A stretch of 64,000 bases of DNA, from contig CALWXF010000001.1 in NCBI GenBank assembly GCA_944385445.1, positions 62,001 to 126,000 on the forward strand, written 5' to 3'. Source of the stretch: an uncultured Oscillospiraceae bacterium (GTDB lineage: Bacteria > Bacillota > Clostridia > Oscillospirales > Oscillospiraceae). Positions 9,515 to 62,339 of the stretch are shown here, piece by piece (position 1 is the stretch's first letter; the number at the start of each line of letters is the position of its first letter). The notes below the pieces were generated by a model. The model was not told the DNA's origin. It worked only from the letters and a program-made list of their open reading frames with translations, and searched no databases. Made by a program: the position numbers and the translations under genes.

Positions 9515-10304
9515 TTTGGCTTGCCAGCCTGGTGGGGACGCTCCGCTGGGCCCAGTGATTTCCAGTCCCAAAGCCTCCCTTGTGTAAAGGGAGGTGGGCT
9601 GACGTAAGTCAGCTCGGAGGGATTGTCCTTCTCCGATTTCTCAGGTGGAGACCAGCGCCCCCGGTGGGGACGCTCCCCGCTGGGGGTTTCTTTTGTTCGG
9701 GCAAAAGAAACCAAAACCCGCTTAGGGCGTTCCCCCCTAAGTACCCCCCTTGGGGTACGAGGCTGTAAATACGTCAAGTGTCCGCTCGGCCCGTCACCCT
9801 TGCTGTGGCTCCTGTCGCTGCCACCACACCAGGCTACCTTGGGCAGCTGGCCCTATAGCTAGGTGGTCTCCATGCCCGGGCCTACCCTGGAGAAGCGGCG
9901 TTCCCGCCGCCGAAAGCCTGGCCCCCGATAGCTGGGAACAGCGGCACACCAGGGTAAGGCCCTGGCGGTAGAAGCACAATGTTTCATAGAAGCAGGCACA
10001 TTCAATGGAATTTCCATGCCATCCATGTGACCCTACCGGGCCAAGGGCCGAACAGAGAAAGGCGCAACCTCCACCCAGTACCGGCGGGGTGGATTCCATA
10101 AGGCGGGGGAAGGCCCCGCCTTTGGCGGTCTTTGGTGACTTTCTGGCGGCAGAAAGTCACCCCAGCGGAGCGTCCCCGGCTGGGGCGCTGGTTTCTGCCT
10201 GGGAAATCGGAGAAGAACACCCCCTCAGTTTGCCTAATGGCAGAAACAGGAACCCCAGCGGGAAGCGTCCCCACCAGGCCGGAGGGCTGGAATAGAGAAC
10301 CCAT
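9515..10304 (+). repeat. Long structured intergenic repeat, copy A
   Basis: Noncoding stretch with no plausible gene. The core at 9660-10250 is clearly homologous, in the same orientation, to 30337-30921, and in reverse to 36604-36912. It holds several strong hairpins: 9685-9712 (GGTTTCTTTTG/CAAAAGAAACC), 10100-10122 (AAGGCGGGG/CCCCGCCTT) and 10134-10161 (GGTGACTTTCTG/CAGAAAGTCACC). A short hairpin repeat (9570-9626) is embedded in its left part. Copies differ by indels that would break any reading frame, while stems keep pairing. Confidence 0.85.
9570..9626 (+). repeat. Short hairpin repeat, type 1
   Basis: AAGCCTCCCTTGTGTAAAGG followed by GAGGTGG, then GCTGAC-gtaa-GTCAGC and CGGAGGGATTGT. 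Same architecture as units at 36541, 36916, 58975 and 62176, but the inner stem has a different paired sequence. Confidence 0.85.
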
Positions 10305-11046: not shown

Positions 11047-12894
11047 ATGACCAGACGGCATAAACAGACCTTGGCCCGCATCCTTGTGGCGGGTGTATTG
11101 CTTGTGGCGGCGGTGCTTACCCCCGAGTCGTGGGGGCTGTGGCGGCTGCCCATCTTCCTCATCCCCTATTTTGTGGTGGGGTGGGATGTGCTGTGGGAGG
11201 CCATTTGCAACATCGCCCACGGCGAGATTTTCGATGAAAACTTCCTCATGTGCGTGGCCACCCTGGGCGCTCTGGTGCTGGGTGAGTACACCGAGGCGGT
11301 GGGGGTCATGCTCTTCTACCAGGTGGGCGAGCTGTTCCAGAGCCTGGCAGTGAGCAAGTCTCGCCGCTCCATTGCCCAGCTCATGGACATCCGCCCGGAC
11401 AGCGCCCATGTGCTGCGGGGCGGAGAGGAAGTCACCGTGGACCCGGACGAGGTGCAGGTGGGGGAGACCCTGGTGGTACGCCCCGGCGAGCGCATCGCCC
11501 TGGACGGCGTGGTGGTGGAGGGCTCCTCCTCTCTGGACACCGCCGCCCTCACGGGCGAGTCCATGCCCCGGGATGTGGAGGAGGGCCAGGAGGTGAGCTC
11601 CGGCTGCGTCAACCTCACGGGGCTGCTGCACCTGGAAGTCACCCGCCCCTTTGGACAGTCCACCGTGGCCCGGATTTTGGAGCTGGTGGAGAACGCCGCC
11701 GCCAAAAAGGCCAAGGCGGAGCACTTCATCACCCGCTTTGCCCGCTGGTATACCCCGGCGGTGGTGCTGGGCGCTGCGGCGCTGGCCATTGTGGGCGGCC
11801 TGGTTACCGGACACTGGGGGGAGTGGGTGCGCCGTGCCCTCATCTTCCTGGTCATCTCCTGCCCCTGCGCCCTGGTGATCTCCATCCCCATGGCCTTCTT
11901 CGGCGGCATTGGCGGGGCCTCCCGCCAAGGTGTGCTGGTGAAGGGGGGCAACTATCTGGAGCTGCTGGCCAAGACCCGCACGGTGGTCTTTGACAAGACC
12001 GGAACCCTCACCCAGGGGAAATTTGCCCTCTCCGGGCTGTATCCGGTCCGGGAGGAGGACGAGGAGCCCCTGCTGCGGTGGGCGGCTCTGGCGGAGAGCC
12101 ATTCCAACCACCCCATTGCCCAGTCTCTGCGCCGAGCCTGGCAGGGAGACGTGAAGGACCACACCGTCACCGACGTGGAGGAGATTCCCGGCCGGGGTGT
12201 GTGCGCCACGGTGGACGGGGTGGAGGTATTGGCGGGCAATGCGGTCTTTCTCTCTCAGCACGGCTTTACCCCTGCCCAGGACGTCCCCGCCGGGACGGTG
12301 GTGCATGTGGCGGCCCAGGGCCGATATCTGGGCTTTGCCCTCATTGCCGACCAGGTGAAGGACCATGCCGCTAAGACCATCGCACAGCTCAAAGCCCAGG
12401 GCGTGCGCACGGTGATGCTCACCGGGGACAGCCGGGAGGTGGGCGAGCAGATGGCCCAACGGCTGGGGCTGGACCAGGTTCACGCCCAGCTGCTGCCCCA
12501 GGACAAGGTGGACCAGCTGGAACAGCTGCTGGATCAAAAGCCGGAGGGCACTGCCCTGGCCTACGTGGGCGACGGCGTCAACGACGCCCCGGTGCTGTCC
12601 CGGGCAGATGTGGGGGTGGCCATGGGCGGCATGGGCTCGGACGCCGCCATTGAGGCCGCCGACGTGGTGCTCATGGACGACGACCCCGCCAAGCTGCTCA
12701 CTGCCATGTCCATTGCCCGCAAGTGCCGGGCCATCGTCATCCAAAACATCGTCTTTGCCCTGGGGGTGAAGGGGCTGTTCCTGGCCATGGGCGCCTTCGG
12801 CGTGGCCACCATGTGGGAGGCGGTGTTTGCCGACGTGGGTGTGGCGGTGATTGCCATTTTGAACGCCAGCCGGATGCTGTACCACAAAAAATGA
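11047..12894 (+). CDS. cadA: P1B-type heavy-metal-exporting ATPase (Cd/Zn/Pb class)
   Basis: 615-aa membrane pump using ATP to export divalent soft metals. Motifs: TGES actuator loop, transmembrane CPC (SCPCALVISIP), phosphorylation site DKTGTLTQGKF, nucleotide-binding SNHP (HP motif), TGD and GDGVNDAPVLSRADVGVAMG. C-terminal helix lysine and Asp pattern fits the Zn/Cd/Pb group (P1B-2). No N-terminal HMA domain; the preceding gene supplies it. The ribosome binding site is modest. The repressor and operator upstream show metal induction. The exact metal cannot be read from sequence. Confidence 0.93.
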   Translation: MTRRHKQTLARILVAGVLLVAAVLTPESWGLWRLPIFLIPYFVVGWDVLWEAICNIAHGEIFDENFLMCVATLGALVLGEYTEAVGVMLFYQVGELFQSLAVSKSRRSIAQLMDIRPDSAHVLRGGEEVTVDPDEVQVGETLVVRPGERIALDGVVVEGSSSLDTAALTGESMPRDVEEGQEVSSGCVNLTGLLHLEVTRPFGQSTVARILELVENAAAKKAKAEHFITRFARWYTPAVVLGAAALAIVGGLVTGHWGEWVRRALIFLVISCPCALVISIPMAFFGGIGGASRQGVLVKGGNYLELLAKTRTVVFDKTGTLTQGKFALSGLYPVREEDEEPLLRWAALAESHSNHPIAQSLRRAWQGDVKDHTVTDVEEIPGRGVCATVDGVEVLAGNAVFLSQHGFTPAQDVPAGTVVHVAAQGRYLGFALIADQVKDHAAKTIAQLKAQGVRTVMLTGDSREVGEQMAQRLGLDQVHAQLLPQDKVDQLEQLLDQKPEGTALAYVGDGVNDAPVLSRADVGVAMGGMGSDAAIEAADVVLMDDDPAKLLTAMSIARKCRAIVIQNIVFALGVKGLFLAMGAFGVATMWEAVFADVGVAVIAILNASRMLYHKK

Positions 12895-12900
12895 TGCATT

Positions 12901-12943
12901 GCACCCTTTAGTTCCCTTTTAAGAGGACTAAAGGGTGCTTTTT
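12901..12943 (+). terminator. Terminator of the metal efflux operon
   Basis: GCACCCTTTAGT pairs with ACTAAAGGGTGC and is followed by T5. Confidence 0.88.
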
Positions 12944-12949
12944 GCCGTT

Positions 12950-13497
12950 CTTGACGACATCCCTATGGGGATGCGCTCCGCTGGGCCCCATTTCTCCCCG
13001 ATGAGAAATGGGGGAAAGAATCGCCAAAGGAGGGGCCTTCCCCCTCCTTGTGGAATCCACCCCGCTTTCCTGGGGGTCAGGGGATGCTTCTCAGACCGGG
13101 CCGAAGGGCGTTTGCCATACCAGGAAGGAAAAGTGGCTCTCTTTGGCTCAGTCGCTGCTGGGATGGTGCGCCGTACTCCTGTTTTCGGCCCTACCTGTGG
13201 CACACCCCGGCCGACAGCGGCCGGGCGAAGGACGCTGCGCCCAGACTTGAGGCACTGGTAGAAGGAGTAGATACTGCCAGCGGAGTAGAAACGTCCCAAA
13301 GGTGCTCCAAGCCATCCAATCCGCCCCACCAGGCCCAGGGCCGACTTGGGCCTGAACCGGAAAAAACAAATCAATCCTGGGGATTCCAAAGGGATCTCCC
13401 TTTGGTGGGTCTTTGGTGGCTTTCTGCCCAACCAGAAAGCCACCCTGCGGAGCAAAAAACAGGCCTATAAGGTTGAAAAACCTTGCAGCGAAAGAAT
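12950..13497. repeat. Long structured intergenic repeat, copy B (divergent, terminal module at both ends)
   Basis: Noncoding. The left end (12974-13060) matches the right end of copy A in reverse orientation, and the right end (13300-13450) matches it in forward orientation, so B is bounded by inverted modules. Hairpins: 12986-13013 (CCCCATTTCTC/GAGAAATGGGG), 13026-13049 (AAAGGAGGGG/CCCCTCCTT) and 13415-13444 (GGTGGCTTTCTG/CAGAAAGCCACC). Each differs from the other copies by paired changes. The interior is strongly diverged. Confidence 0.75.
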
Positions 13498-13551
13498 CCA
13501 GACCTCATGGTTATGCCATGACACCTACCCTTACACAAGGGAGGCTTTTGG
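13498..13551 (-). repeat. Degenerate short hairpin repeat, type 1 reversed
   Basis: CATGGttatGCCATG followed by ACACCTACCCTTACACAAGG and GAGGC: a decayed reverse copy of the type 1 unit, at the right edge of copy B. Confidence 0.6.
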
Positions 13552-30253: not shown

Positions 30254-30336
30254 TTGGTGTAAACGTATATTGTTTGGTATCTGTGGAGAGAGGAAGAGGG
30301 CCTGCTCTTCTCCACGTTCGATTCCAGCCCTCCGGC

Positions 30337-30921
30337 CTGGTGGGGACGCTCCCCGCTGGGGGTTCCTTTTGCTCGGTCAAAAGGAACCAAAACCCGCTTA
30401 GGGCGTTCCCCCCTAAGGACCTCCCTGGGGTACGAGGCTGGGCCTGCGTCAAGTCTAGGTTCGGCCCGTCACCCTTGCTGTGGCCCCTGTTTGTGCCACC
30501 ACACTAGGCTGCCCTGGGCAGCTGGCCCTATGGCCGGGTGGTTTCCATATCCGGGCCTACCCTGGCTAAGCGGCGTTCCCGCCACCGGGAGCCGGGCCCC
30601 CGATAGCTGGGAACAGCGGCACACCAAGATAAGGCCCTGGCGATAGAAGTACTGTCTGCCAGAGGAGCAGGCACGTTCTGTAGAATGTCCACGCCGTCTA
30701 TGTGACCTCGCCGGGCCAAGGTCCGAAAAGAGAAGGGCGCACACGCCACCCAGTACCGCGGGGTGGATTCCACAAGGCGGGGGAAGGCCCCGCCTTTGGC
30801 GGTCTTTGGTGACTTTCTGGCGGCAGAAAGTCACCCCAGCGCCAGCGTCCCCGGCGGGGGCGCAGGTCTGCACCTGAGAAATGGTCGAAGGACCGGCCCT
30901 CAGTCTGCCGGATGGCAGAAG
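30337..30921 (+). repeat. Long structured intergenic repeat, copy C
   Basis: Aligns over its whole length with copy A (9660-10250) in the same orientation. The first hairpin is GGTTCCTTTTG/CAAAAGGAACC (30361-30388), where copy A has GGTTTCTTTTG/CAAAAGAAACC, so both arms changed together. The hairpin at 30808-30835 (GGTGACTTTCTG/CAGAAAGTCACC) is identical to A. The right end abuts the broken permease coding sequence. Confidence 0.85.
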
Positions 30922-32741: not shown

Positions 32742-32761
32742 GAGGGGGCGGCTACCTCTCT

Positions 32762-32893
32762 ATGGCTCCCCTGTGTAAGGGGAGCTGGCAGCCCGTAGGG
32801 CTGACTGAGGGGTTGACCGTAGTGGGTAGCAGACAATCCCTCCGTCACCGCCTGTGGCGGCGACACCTCCCTTTACACAAGGGAGGCTTTTGG
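32762..32893. repeat. Composite short hairpin repeat (type 2 forward + type 1 reversed)
   Basis: GGCTCCCCTGTGTAAGGGGAGC-type hairpin, then CAGCC-cgta-GGGCTG and ACTGAGGGGTTGAC (type 2). After a short spacer come ACAATCCCTCCGTCACCGCC and the reversed type 1 hairpin ending AAGGGAGGC. The same two halves in other orders occur at 36916, 44026 and 62176. Confidence 0.85.
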
Positions 32894-36528: not shown

Positions 36529-36540
36529 GCGAAAAACCCA

Positions 36541-36597
36541 ACGCCTCCCTTGTGCAAAGGGAGGTGGCATGGCGTAGCCATGACGGAGGGATTGTTC
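36541..36597 (+). repeat. Short hairpin repeat, type 1
   Basis: GCCTCCCTTGTGCAAAGGGA then GGTGG, inner stem CATGGC-gta-GCCATG, end ACGGAGGGATTGT. Confidence 0.85.
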
Positions 36598-36603
36598 TTC
36601 TGA

Positions 36604-36912
36604 GTGGCTTTGTTCCGGCTTGCCAGCCTGGCAGGGACGCTCCGCTGGGCCCCCTTTCTCAGCGATGAGAAAGGGGGGAAAGAATCGCCAAAGGCGGGGC
36701 CTTCCCCCGCCTTGTGGAATCCACCCCGCGGTACTGGGTGGAGGGTGCATCGTTCTCTTTTCGGCCCTTGGCCTGGTTCATGTCACATAGATGGCGTGGA
36801 GATTCTAGAGAGAGTCGATGCTCCTCTGTGTGGTTGTTCTTCTACCTCCAGGGCCTTACCTTGGGGTGCAACTGTTCCCAGTTGCCGGGGGCCTGGCTTC
36901 CGGTGACTGCCA
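36604..36912 (-). repeat. Long structured intergenic repeat, copy D
   Basis: Reverse-orientation, shorter copy of A/C. Its GAATCCACCCCGCGGTACTG, the following CGGCCCTTGGCC region and the later GGGCCTTACC / TGTTCCCAG blocks match the reverse complement of copy A. It carries the hairpin CCCCCTTTCTC/GAGAAAGGGGG (36650-36677). The other end of the element (the A/C left part) is missing. Confidence 0.8.
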
Positions 36913-36915
36913 GAC

Positions 36916-37045
36916 TCAAAGCCTCCCTCAGGGAGGGAGGTGGCCCGGCGTAAGCCGGGTCGGAGGGATTGTTTGCAGCCTGCTACCGTCAACCCCTCAG
37001 TCAGCCTTGCGGCTGACAGCTCCCCTGACACAGGGGAGCCTTTGG
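36916..37045. repeat. Composite short hairpin repeat (type 1 forward + type 2 reversed)
   Basis: AAAGCCTCCCTCAGGGAGGG, inner stem CCCGGC-gtaa-GCCGGG, CGGAGGGATTGT. Then a spacer, CAACCCCTCAGTCAGC-cttgc-GGCTGAC and GCTCCCCTGACACAGGGGAG. Confidence 0.85.
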
Positions 37046-43933: not shown

Positions 43934-44025
43934 ATATCCCCCGGCATACCGTAAAGTCCCCAAGGGCGAACCACCCCCGATTTCTGCGGGGAAACCTGCT
44001 CCCTCGGTGGGAACGCTGCGCACCA

Positions 44026-44186
44026 AAGGCCCCCTTGTGTAAAGGGGGCTGTCAGCCGTCAGGCTGACTGGGGGATTGTCTGTCCTGACCAGCGAACAAA
44101 ACTAGGAGGGAATTGGGTCCTTGGTGGCGGTCAATCCCTCCGTCACGGCTACGCCGTGCCACCTCCCTTTACACAAGGGAGGCGTT
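44026..44186. repeat. Composite short hairpin repeat (type 2-like forward + type 1 reversed)
   Basis: GGCCCCCTTGTGTAAAGGGG, then CAGCCgtcaGGCTG and ACTGGGGGATTGTC. About 55 bp later, CAATCCCTCCGTCACGGC-tac-GCCGTG and the reversed TTTACACAAGGGAGGC. The first stem has CCCCCTT/AAGGGGG where others have CCTCCCTT/AAGGGAGG. The spacer shows no gene. Confidence 0.8.
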
Positions 44187-44215
44187 GCGTCTGGCGGTGA
44201 AACCCCGTGTCACCC

Positions 44216-50310: not shown

Positions 50311-50676
50311 TTATCCGTGGTGTCCGCCCCAGTAGCCGTTGCCGTGGTGGCCTTGTCCACCGCCGTGGCAGTGGGTGCCCTGGTTGTCGCAGATGCCGTC
50401 GTTGTCGGCGTCCATATAGTTCTGGCCCTGGTTGTCACACACGCCGTCCTGGTCCACGTCCACATAGTACCGTCCATCGCAGACGGTGCCCCGGTTGTCG
50501 CACACCCCATCGCCGTCCTGGTCCACATAGCACTGGGCGGAGCAGTTGGTGGTGTCACACACCCGGGTTTTCTGGCAGCCGCCGAAGCAGTTACCCTGGG
50601 AAGAGGCAAAGGCGGACACGGTGCCCACCGTGAGCAGGGTGGCGCCTGCCACCAGACCTGCAACGAGTTTTAACAT
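50311..50676 (-). CDS. Secreted protein with three DxDxDG calcium-binding-type repeats
   Basis: 121 aa. Signal peptide MLKLVAGLVAGATLLTVGTV ending SAFA. The mature part has Cys pairs (NCFGGCQKTRVCDTTNC) and three repeats of about 22 residues: YVDQDGDGVCDN, YVDVDQDGVCDN, YMDADNDGICDN, matching the acidic Ca loops of thrombospondin type 3/EF-hand-like repeats, each with one Cys. The tail GGGQGHHGNGYWGGHHG is Gly/His-rich like that of the anti-sigma factor. GGAGGGATT precedes the start. It heads the sigma operon, so it may be sensor or main target; family not named. Confidence 0.85.
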   Translation of the reverse strand: MLKLVAGLVAGATLLTVGTVSAFASSQGNCFGGCQKTRVCDTTNCSAQCYVDQDGDGVCDNRGTVCDGRYYVDVDQDGVCDNQGQNYMDADNDGICDNQGTHCHGGGQGHHGNGYWGGHHG

Positions 50677-62164: not shown

Positions 62165-62175
62165 GATAAGGAAAG

Positions 62176-62298
62176 AGCCTCCCTTGTGTAAAGGGAGGTG
62201 GCACGGCGCAGCCGTGACGGAGGGATTGTCCGTACCTGGTTGAAGTCAACCCCTCAGTCAGCCTTGCGGCTGACAGCTCCCCTTACACAGGGGAGCCG
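62176..62298. repeat. Composite short hairpin repeat (type 1 forward + type 2 reversed)
   Basis: GCCTCCCTTGTGTAAAGGGA, GGTGG, CACGGC-gca-GCCGTG, ACGGAGGGATTGT. After a 21-nt spacer come CAACCCCTCAGTCAGC-cttgc-GGCTGAC and GCTCCCCTTACACAGGGGAG. The clearest complete composite copy; it lies between alaS and the HIT gene. Confidence 0.88.
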
Positions 62299-62339
62299 TA
62301 GGGCTGCGGCTGTGTAGATCATAACAAGGAGTTGATACC

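Follow-up and report, generated by a model that had tools for sequence, protein, structure and literature searches.

Palindromic intergenic elements with covarying, pseudoknot-forming ends in an uncultured Oscillospiraceae bacterium and its relatives

Described repeat families and the elements of the window

MITEs, BOX and Correia elements are non-coding, nested and modular, carry terminal inverted repeats and lie between genes. IS200/IS605 elements possess subterminal DNA hairpins, Y1_Tnp (RAYT) is the transposase family that moves REPINs, and a role in binding gyrase or nucleoid proteins has been proposed for BIMEs. Covariation is normally read as a mark of RNA, and RNA helices normally pass through G-U states. 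REPINs and BIMEs are described as extragenic, inverted palindromic doublets with a mosaic structure and compensatory changes in their hairpins (PMC3116915, PMC6006769), a guide tetranucleotide has been described for the ends of IS200/IS605 (PMC6006769), and STAXI is a repeated pseudoknot which its authors suspected of acting as single-stranded DNA (PMC2864571). The main text of the RepRanger paper (PMC12306157), searched by term, does not mention Oscillospiraceae.

The DNA considered here is a stretch of 64,000 nucleotides (the window, whose positions are used below) within a 457,566-base contig (C1) of the 2.15 Mb genome of an uncultured Oscillospiraceae bacterium, referred to as the own genome. 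As far as the published descriptions go, its elements resemble REPINs and BIMEs in being extragenic, numerous, mosaic and non-autonomous, with inverted palindromic units, short spacers and compensatory changes; the defining doublets (inverted short palindromes, extragenic, in high copy number) occur both as S pairs and as paired end modules. They differ in their size of about 0.4–1.3 kb, their long centre, the pairing of a hairpin loop with a nearby spacer and the missing Y1 match in the own genome. With IS200/IS605, to the same extent of description, they share subterminal DNA hairpins with a four-base pairing sequence nearby, but here the partner is the hairpin's own loop, the ends are inverted repeats and the A-type cores are non-coding. 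STAXI, the nearest repeated pseudoknot found that has been suspected of single-stranded DNA action, is described as tandem and often close to DNA-handling genes, whereas here inverted pairs enclose a centre at dozens of intergenic sites. The likeness to MITEs, BOX and Correia elements extends to non-coding character, terminal inverted repeats (as classical MITEs require), intergenic position, nesting and modularity; in contrast to them, target-site duplication was not found, the centre is constrained and varies in type by species group, and the ends are covarying pseudoknots. Invertons, by the descriptions seen, also have a DNA segment between inverted repeats in both orientations, but here the inverted pairs (between species) have replaced centres as well. 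No name for the family was found in the literature searched, which consisted mostly of papers free of subscription.

A reading of this DNA from its sequence alone had claimed four copies, A to D, and all four are present at the positions claimed, in a family larger than it reported, with dozens of non-coding elements of 0.5–0.7 kb in intergenic positions across a group of gut bacteria. Its range 9515–10304 does hold copy A (+), but also end fragments of other elements on both sides. On the left lie an end-module fragment matching the end of D (9518–9553, +; C1:71518–71553) and S1, a small outer palindromic repeat flanking A (9568–9625, +; profile match C1:71568–71625). Copy A consists of a left half-unit (LH; 9651–9890, +; nhmmer match C1:71651–71890) and a right half-unit (RH; 9896–10201, +; C1:71896–72201), the latter diverged and inverted with respect to the former, and the end-module model matches it at 9667–9761 (−) and 10075–10176 (+). 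In the left end one reads from the sequence hairpin H1 (9685–9712, +; arms 9685–9695 and 9702–9712, loop 9696–9701) and the spacer CCCG (9717–9720, +), which is complementary to CGGG of the loop (9698–9701) and is its pseudoknot partner. The right end contains hairpin H2, AAGGCGGGG/CCCCGCCTT (10100–10122, +; read from the sequence and from alignment A3), and another H1 (10134–10161, +) with the loop GCGG and without loop-spacer pairing. A left-end fragment of another element follows (10229–10296, −; LH match C1:72229–72286, inverted match to C).

Copies A and C align along their whole length, as had been stated, with 86% identity; C comprises LH (30331–30565, +; C1:92331–92565; end module 30343–30436, −) and RH (30571–30877, +; C1:92571–92877; end module 30750–30851, +). 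Copy B does share end modules with A and C, and they surround another centre. Its left part (12950–13091, −) is an RH-related end module with H1, the loop-spacer pair CGAT/ATCG and H2 (end-module match 12970–13073, −, E 3.3e-29; RH match 12961–13091). The centre of B (13092–13247) has no LH or RH match and a relative at C4:4222–4702 (89%); the right part (13248–13458, +) is distantly RH-related (73.8 bits) and ends in an end module at 13367–13458 (+) with the pair CCCA/TGGG. An S repeat flanks B at 13505–13549 (−; C1:75505–75549). Copy D, described earlier as a shorter reverse copy, is a right half-unit alone, reversed (36617–36906, −; C1:98617–98906; end module 36634–36737, −), while A, B and C have both ends. 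It is accompanied by S1 on the left (36538–36594, +; C1:98538–98594) and by an adjoining S1-18 bp-S2' pair (36917–37045; C1:98917–98971, +, and 98990–99045, −). Stand-alone S pairs lie at 32760–32891 (S2-18 bp-S1'), 62175–62301 (S1-18 bp-S2') and 44023–44187 (inverted, 53 bp spacer), all recognised by the S profile. Elsewhere in the window, three 48 bp repeats within a long reading frame (50377–50535) resemble calcium-binding repeats in appearance.

With A as the query, at least 32 places of the own genome, A itself included, were aligned over at least 463 bases at 78–100% identity (40 of 119 candidates scored); alignments of this length, the weakest with E 3.8e-128, exclude a chance origin. 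RH alone found 41 own-genome places (E ≤ 1.8e-42). A covariance model of the end module, the kind of search that had been proposed earlier, was run against the own genome and its relatives and revealed many further ends, with at least 66 matches in the own genome and likewise in four relatives. In the window it matched seven ends over their full length, two each in A, B and C and one in D, all with E ≤ 1.2e-13, one of them (B left) being itself part of the alignment of the model as L091.

The alignment of 30 own copies has a conserved stretch of about 600 columns. Profiles of the two halves demonstrate that LH and RH are related to each other in inverted orientation, though diverged, and the centre of A and C consists of these two half-units facing each other. 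Among 54 neighbouring half-unit pairs in 100 loci, 47 are facing LH-RH pairs less than 50 bases apart, and the remainder are three RH-RH pairs and four with gaps of 88–201 bases. Outside the half-units stand S1 and S2, repeats of 55–58 bp which are often decayed and occur without a core too; among the ten inverted S pairs on C1 separated by less than 60 bases, the spacer measures exactly 18 bp in six. Where relative E16 has S-core-S with an incomplete left S, the own genome has an S pair only (C1:195361), from which it follows that the core sits in the spacer of an S pair. From the outside inwards, the plan of the element is thus S repeats, an end module (H1, then H2) and a centre specific to the species group.

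The S pair is also a repeat family of its own, which one query pair detects in 22 of the 60 relatives, representing 8 of the 24 genera, and no name for it was found in the literature searched. By eye, its spacer looks partly conserved (e.g., in the pairs at 32760–32891 and 62175–62301).

Pairing at the ends

Of 205 distinct ends, 186 carry H1; its stem occurs in 34 different versions, almost all with perfect pairing. In 75 full cores (32 own and 43 from relatives), 19 column pairs covary against tree-based null models; all 19 lie within the two end regions, that is, H1 and its spacer, and nine are consistent with base pairing. Elsewhere in these cores no significant covariation was detected. 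Cross-pairing of LH with RH was rejected, because none of the significant pairs in the 75 cores links the two halves. The double changes quoted in the sequence-only reading, which had described stems changing in both arms at once, can be read in the copies. The statistical check on many aligned copies that it called for established covariation for the H1 stems, but not for H2, AAGGCGGGG/CCCCGCCTT, where a double change occurs in 11 of 114 right halves (pair 206–220) and no pair is significant.

The structure exceeds what had been seen before. Since extra covarying pairs pointed to the spacer just inside H1, the complementarity of the H1 loop to this spacer was discovered, and the two form a pseudoknot. 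At least four loop-spacer base pairs are present in 95 of 117 distinct ends (mean 32 and maximum 43 in 300 shuffles), the other 22 ends being exceptions; with each loop-spacer combination counted once, the figure is 65 of 86 (shuffled mean 19, maximum 30). In the window four or more such pairs are found in A left, B left, B right and D and three in C left; in the right ends of A and C none can be read from the sequence.

Alignment A3 contains 39 ends picked for diversity out of 137 distinct ones (40 were chosen and L253:7239–7327 was left out), and its counts are not frequencies. Across the whole structure, changes are double-sided 148 times and one-sided once, two of 587 cells are G-U, and the covariation score of 0.544 compares with 0.169 after shuffling and no more than 0.124 after sliding. 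Of the loop-spacer column pairs, three are paired without exception (33 of 33, 39 of 39 and 33 of 33) and show two or three pair types; a fourth is paired in 33 of 39 ends, and a fifth (53–80) in only 8 of 32, the other 24 being unpaired. Of the five measures, two are not clearly separated from the shuffles, namely the number of pairs with a double change (12 against 10.7, reached by 13 of 500 shuffles) and the number of pair types (21 against 25.1). The unpaired fifth column pair, the 22 exceptions and these two measures count against the interpretation preferred below.

Larger alignments, with LH pairs 36–45 and RH pairs 238–248 summed, give 2,074 Watson-Crick, 29 G-T, 10 A-C and 61 other H1 cells. 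The near absence of G-U favours a DNA fold, or else a DNA copying process in which one arm serves to renew the other; it points to folding or copying at the DNA level and does not prove it, and loop-spacer pairing is hard to explain by copying alone. Folding energy does not decide between the two nucleic acids, since the fold of A has z −5.1 with DNA and z −5.0 with RNA parameters. Covariation with G-U intermediates on one strand, as expected of a structured RNA, was not seen in A3. Rfam gave no match at the gathering score within the window, in agreement with the earlier statement that no known family fits, and for A and one S pair only sub-threshold matches at E ≤ 5, the best with E 0.23. 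A group II intron remnant was rejected, as no Rfam intron model was listed for A at E ≤ 5. The claim that indels rule out a conserved protein holds as well: a protein-coding gene was rejected, for a period-3 signal is missing and the lengths of most indels are not divisible by 3 (remainders 0/1/2: 26, 136 and 29 deletions; 23, 132 and 41 insertions).

Distribution, sites and turnover

The family is patchily distributed within one order. Matches of the end model were found in 29 of 60 relatives (E ≤ 1e-4), in 2 of 24 genera, and in at least 13 of 295 genomes drawn from the order (E ≤ 1e-5), which belong to six of 148 genera and to three families, the latter counts being lower bounds because 13 candidates were scored per genome. 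Strong A-type matches (E ≤ 3.7e-69) are present in 6 of 36 same-genus genomes, and the others have none or weak ones. An exact 20-base pattern searched in genome contigs gave at least 90 loci, in five genomes among the matches listed: Pseudoflavonifractor sp. An44, P. capillosus An386a, Candidatus Enterenecus avicola and two uncultured Oscillospiraceae. Plasmids and phages yielded no match by distant blastn, and viral contigs none to the exact pattern.

The same nested plan recurs in other species with other centres. Eight such genomes, including one from another family, supplied 33 distinct ends, of which 30 form at least three loop-spacer pairs (shuffled mean 15, maximum 22 in 1000 shuffles) and ten at least four (shuffled mean 1.5, maximum 6). 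The end model itself contains no such pairs. Of its 68 matches 46 were used, those left out being mostly reverse-strand or overlapping, and 33 distinct ones had the hairpin. Element sizes differ by species: about 474–478 bp in G001, 412–418 in G008 (one cut at a contig end), 539–553 in G019, 643–669 in G016 and 493–500 in G042, the last having an outer inverted repeat beyond the H1 ends like S in the own genome.

A small XRE gene lies inside 5 of 30 elements examined (three of the 30 own, one locus counted twice, L360 = L377 of G016), and in three of these five there is a DUF6809-like gene also. Four of the five XRE genes and two of the three DUF6809-like ones had themselves served to make the profiles that found them, so that only the genes of L368 are independent. 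These XRE-cargo elements are located at L344 1501–2587, L345 483–1597, L353 1501–2620, L364 1501–2785 and L368 1852–3190. In the cargo elements of G026, G027 and G028, facing folded ends enclose the XRE-family regulator gene; three of four scanned XRE proteins resemble the RstR repressor model, below its cut-off.

On C1, every core unit lies mostly outside predicted genes (370 genes, custom predictor). The 15 intergenic regions with core units include 7 convergent, 7 tandem and 1 divergent, against 48, 208 and 48 of all C1 intergenic regions, and this bias probably arose because insertions between two promoters were removed. XRE genes are neighbours at 3 of the 15 sites (two by Pfam, the third by eye). 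As for the core itself, 104 of 542 columns never change on the tree, with 0.6 expected at a uniform rate, which is more than the centre of a simple MITE needs and counts against the preferred interpretation. Transversion singletons number 49 in 183 unvarying columns and 47 in 122 transition-variable columns, or 0.27 per column without shared variation against 0.39. Columns without shared variation are thus not mutational cold spots, and most new changes there do not spread; constraint at the host level and at the element level are not separated by this test.

Orthologous sites were sought among the loci at hand, and for A to D in 12 genomes. Twenty relative clusters with both flanks mapping to C1 define 12 own sites for the core elements of relatives, of which 10 hold core units, one an S pair only and one neither. 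The sites are thus mostly old and common to the species, which counts against showing present mobility. The content of the sites behaves differently. Among 18 orthologous pairs with full cores (of 19, L214/L267 was dropped as non-orthologous, on one An44 contig; L005, L237 and L269 are one site), nine rank 1st–4th of 74 comparisons, all in the same orientation, and the other nine rank only 8th–72nd despite flanks that are 83–98% identical. Five of these nine, at four sites, are inverted; the chance of all five falling into the low-ranked group is 0.015, or 0.019 by site, as computed by hand with the rank-4 cut chosen after the ranks had been seen. At one site shared with An44, where flank identity is 98 and 96% and the outer S2 and the start of the end hardly differ, the core is inverted, with 83% identity. 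An RH occurs in P. capillosus at a site where the own genome has none, A and the small gene preceding it are both missing from G001, and at the site orthologous to D An44 has a full LH-RH element (L171 9950–10495). The copies are also mosaic: for 129 of the 496 own pairs the longest shared runs exceed permutation (p < 0.01, five expected); linkage of nearby sites inside hairpins may add to this signal.

Two further observations concern single sites. The element at site A of An44 is in the opposite orientation (L163, L164), the site being split over two contigs. The terminator-like hairpins next to B (L161, L164, L167, window 12890–12950) differ between species with flanking genes 84–99% identical, and from these sequences whole intergenic stretches, terminator included, seem to have been exchanged at this site.

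Presence and absence, together with replacement at orthologous sites, agree in part with the earlier suggestion of a non-autonomous mobile element. The comparison of orthologous loci for precise insertion ends was run and gave none, the flanks being diverged. Target-site duplication was not seen in the alignments of the orthologous sites B and D, of two core sites and of the S-pair sites, nor was a clean empty site, and around the S pairs the species differ over the entire intergenic stretch. Both results count against the preferred interpretation.

A mobilising enzyme was sought as well. Y1_Tnp (PF01797) has no match in the own genome (G000), G009, G018, G020 and G024, with a positive E. coli control, and the transposase that marks IS200/IS605 or its MITEs was thus not found there; the own assembly is 91% complete, so a Y1 gene may have been missed. 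In G010, the fifth other main carrier, a weak match has a stop inside. Among further genomes with end modules, G016, G026, G027, G028, G036 and G042 have none, G001 has two, G004 four, and G008, G010 and G019 one weak match each. The missing match in the own genome counts against the preferred interpretation, and since a search for the transposase that defines REPINs found none there, the element is not classed as one. As to an autonomous parent, no gap longer than 201 bases separates neighbouring half-units within 3 kb (100 loci), and in the longer elements of other species XRE or DUF6809-like genes and no transposase were seen at the loci examined.

Origin and significance of the elements

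In our opinion, it is fairly probable that these are non-coding, non-autonomous, palindromic, BIME/REPIN-like mobile DNA elements with folded DNA ends. Their anatomy and copy number, the maintained pairing, the patchy occurrence within one order, the replaced and sometimes inverted centres at shared sites and the mosaicism are observed directly. The evidence points to an undescribed family and to mobile folded DNA rather than an ordinary RNA gene, an RNA role being less likely. The ends would be recognised as folded single-stranded DNA by a putative enzyme supplied in trans, which would have spread the elements before these species split. Today most change may come from recombination between copies through their shared inverted ends, by which, the two ends being alike, a donor centre could be copied in either orientation, and this would explain why inversion accompanies replacement.

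Other explanations of the pairing are less probable. If it is a by-product of DNA copying, in which template switching within hairpins corrects one arm from the other and no selection for structure is needed, then arms changing together with almost no one-sided or G-U states are just what is expected, and the finding that 7 of 12 private H1-stem states are unpaired means that breakage is not strongly purged at once. Against such a mechanism, which we regard as possible and rather unlikely, stand the loop-spacer pairing a few bases from the stem, always kept at three column pairs and recurring with other centres, and the long LH-RH palindrome itself, which remains uncorrected. Quite improbable is a large structured non-coding RNA, already suggested in the sequence-only reading, that is transcribed, has RNA pseudoknots at its ends and performs its job in trans. 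A strongly covarying pseudoknot, the very stable fold (z −5.0) and the 104 unvarying columns, together with columns that are not cold spots, would suit it, but G-U states occupy 2 of 587 cells, the fold is equally special as DNA (z −5.1), significant covariation is confined to the end regions, the palindromic plan allows either orientation at one site, 7 of 15 C1 sites lie between convergent genes and Rfam offers no match.

The spread of the elements has rival explanations as well. That they are REPINs or BIMEs proper, left over from REP doublets that a since-lost Y1 (RAYT) transposase had spread, is in our estimate unlikely. Inverted doublets with short fixed spacers (the 18 bp S pairs), the mosaic, extragenic and multicopy character and the Y1_Tnp matches of G001, G004 and, weakly, G008, G010 and G019 speak for it; the absence of such matches from the own genome, from four of the five other main carriers and from six further end-module genomes, and a four-base partner that pairs with the hairpin's own loop, speak against it, and a RAYT/REPIN system proper was rejected on the missing Y1 match in the own genome. 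It is likewise very doubtful that the elements are DNA serving the host, e.g., as a site for gyrase or a nucleoid protein at the 3' ends of genes, with position selected and orientation indifferent. Sites common to species while their sequence is swapped, enrichment between convergent genes and the constraint on the core are in line with such a role, whereas strong A-type matches are restricted to 6 of 36 same-genus genomes, and other species have other centres; private transversions, whose rate on unvarying columns is about 70% of that in other columns, do not decide the matter.

Within the preferred interpretation of mobile DNA with folded ends, one may tentatively go further, to a conclusion that we hold to be rather improbable as yet, and see here a new class of mobile DNA. 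The H1 stem and its variable loop-spacer pairing would then serve as a changeable address for the putative enzyme, and the centres would be exchangeable cassettes, non-coding or with small XRE regulator genes, which resident copies trade in either orientation at fixed sites.

Strong covariation and a pseudoknot with G-U nearly lacking make the family a test case for distinguishing DNA folds from RNA folds, and such repeats can disturb assemblies and mislead searches for RNA motifs. In fixed sites with content swapped and flipped between species, recombination among repeats is recorded naturally. An enzyme reading the folded ends, should it exist, may be new; if there is no such enzyme, the family shows that palindromes can persist by recombination alone.
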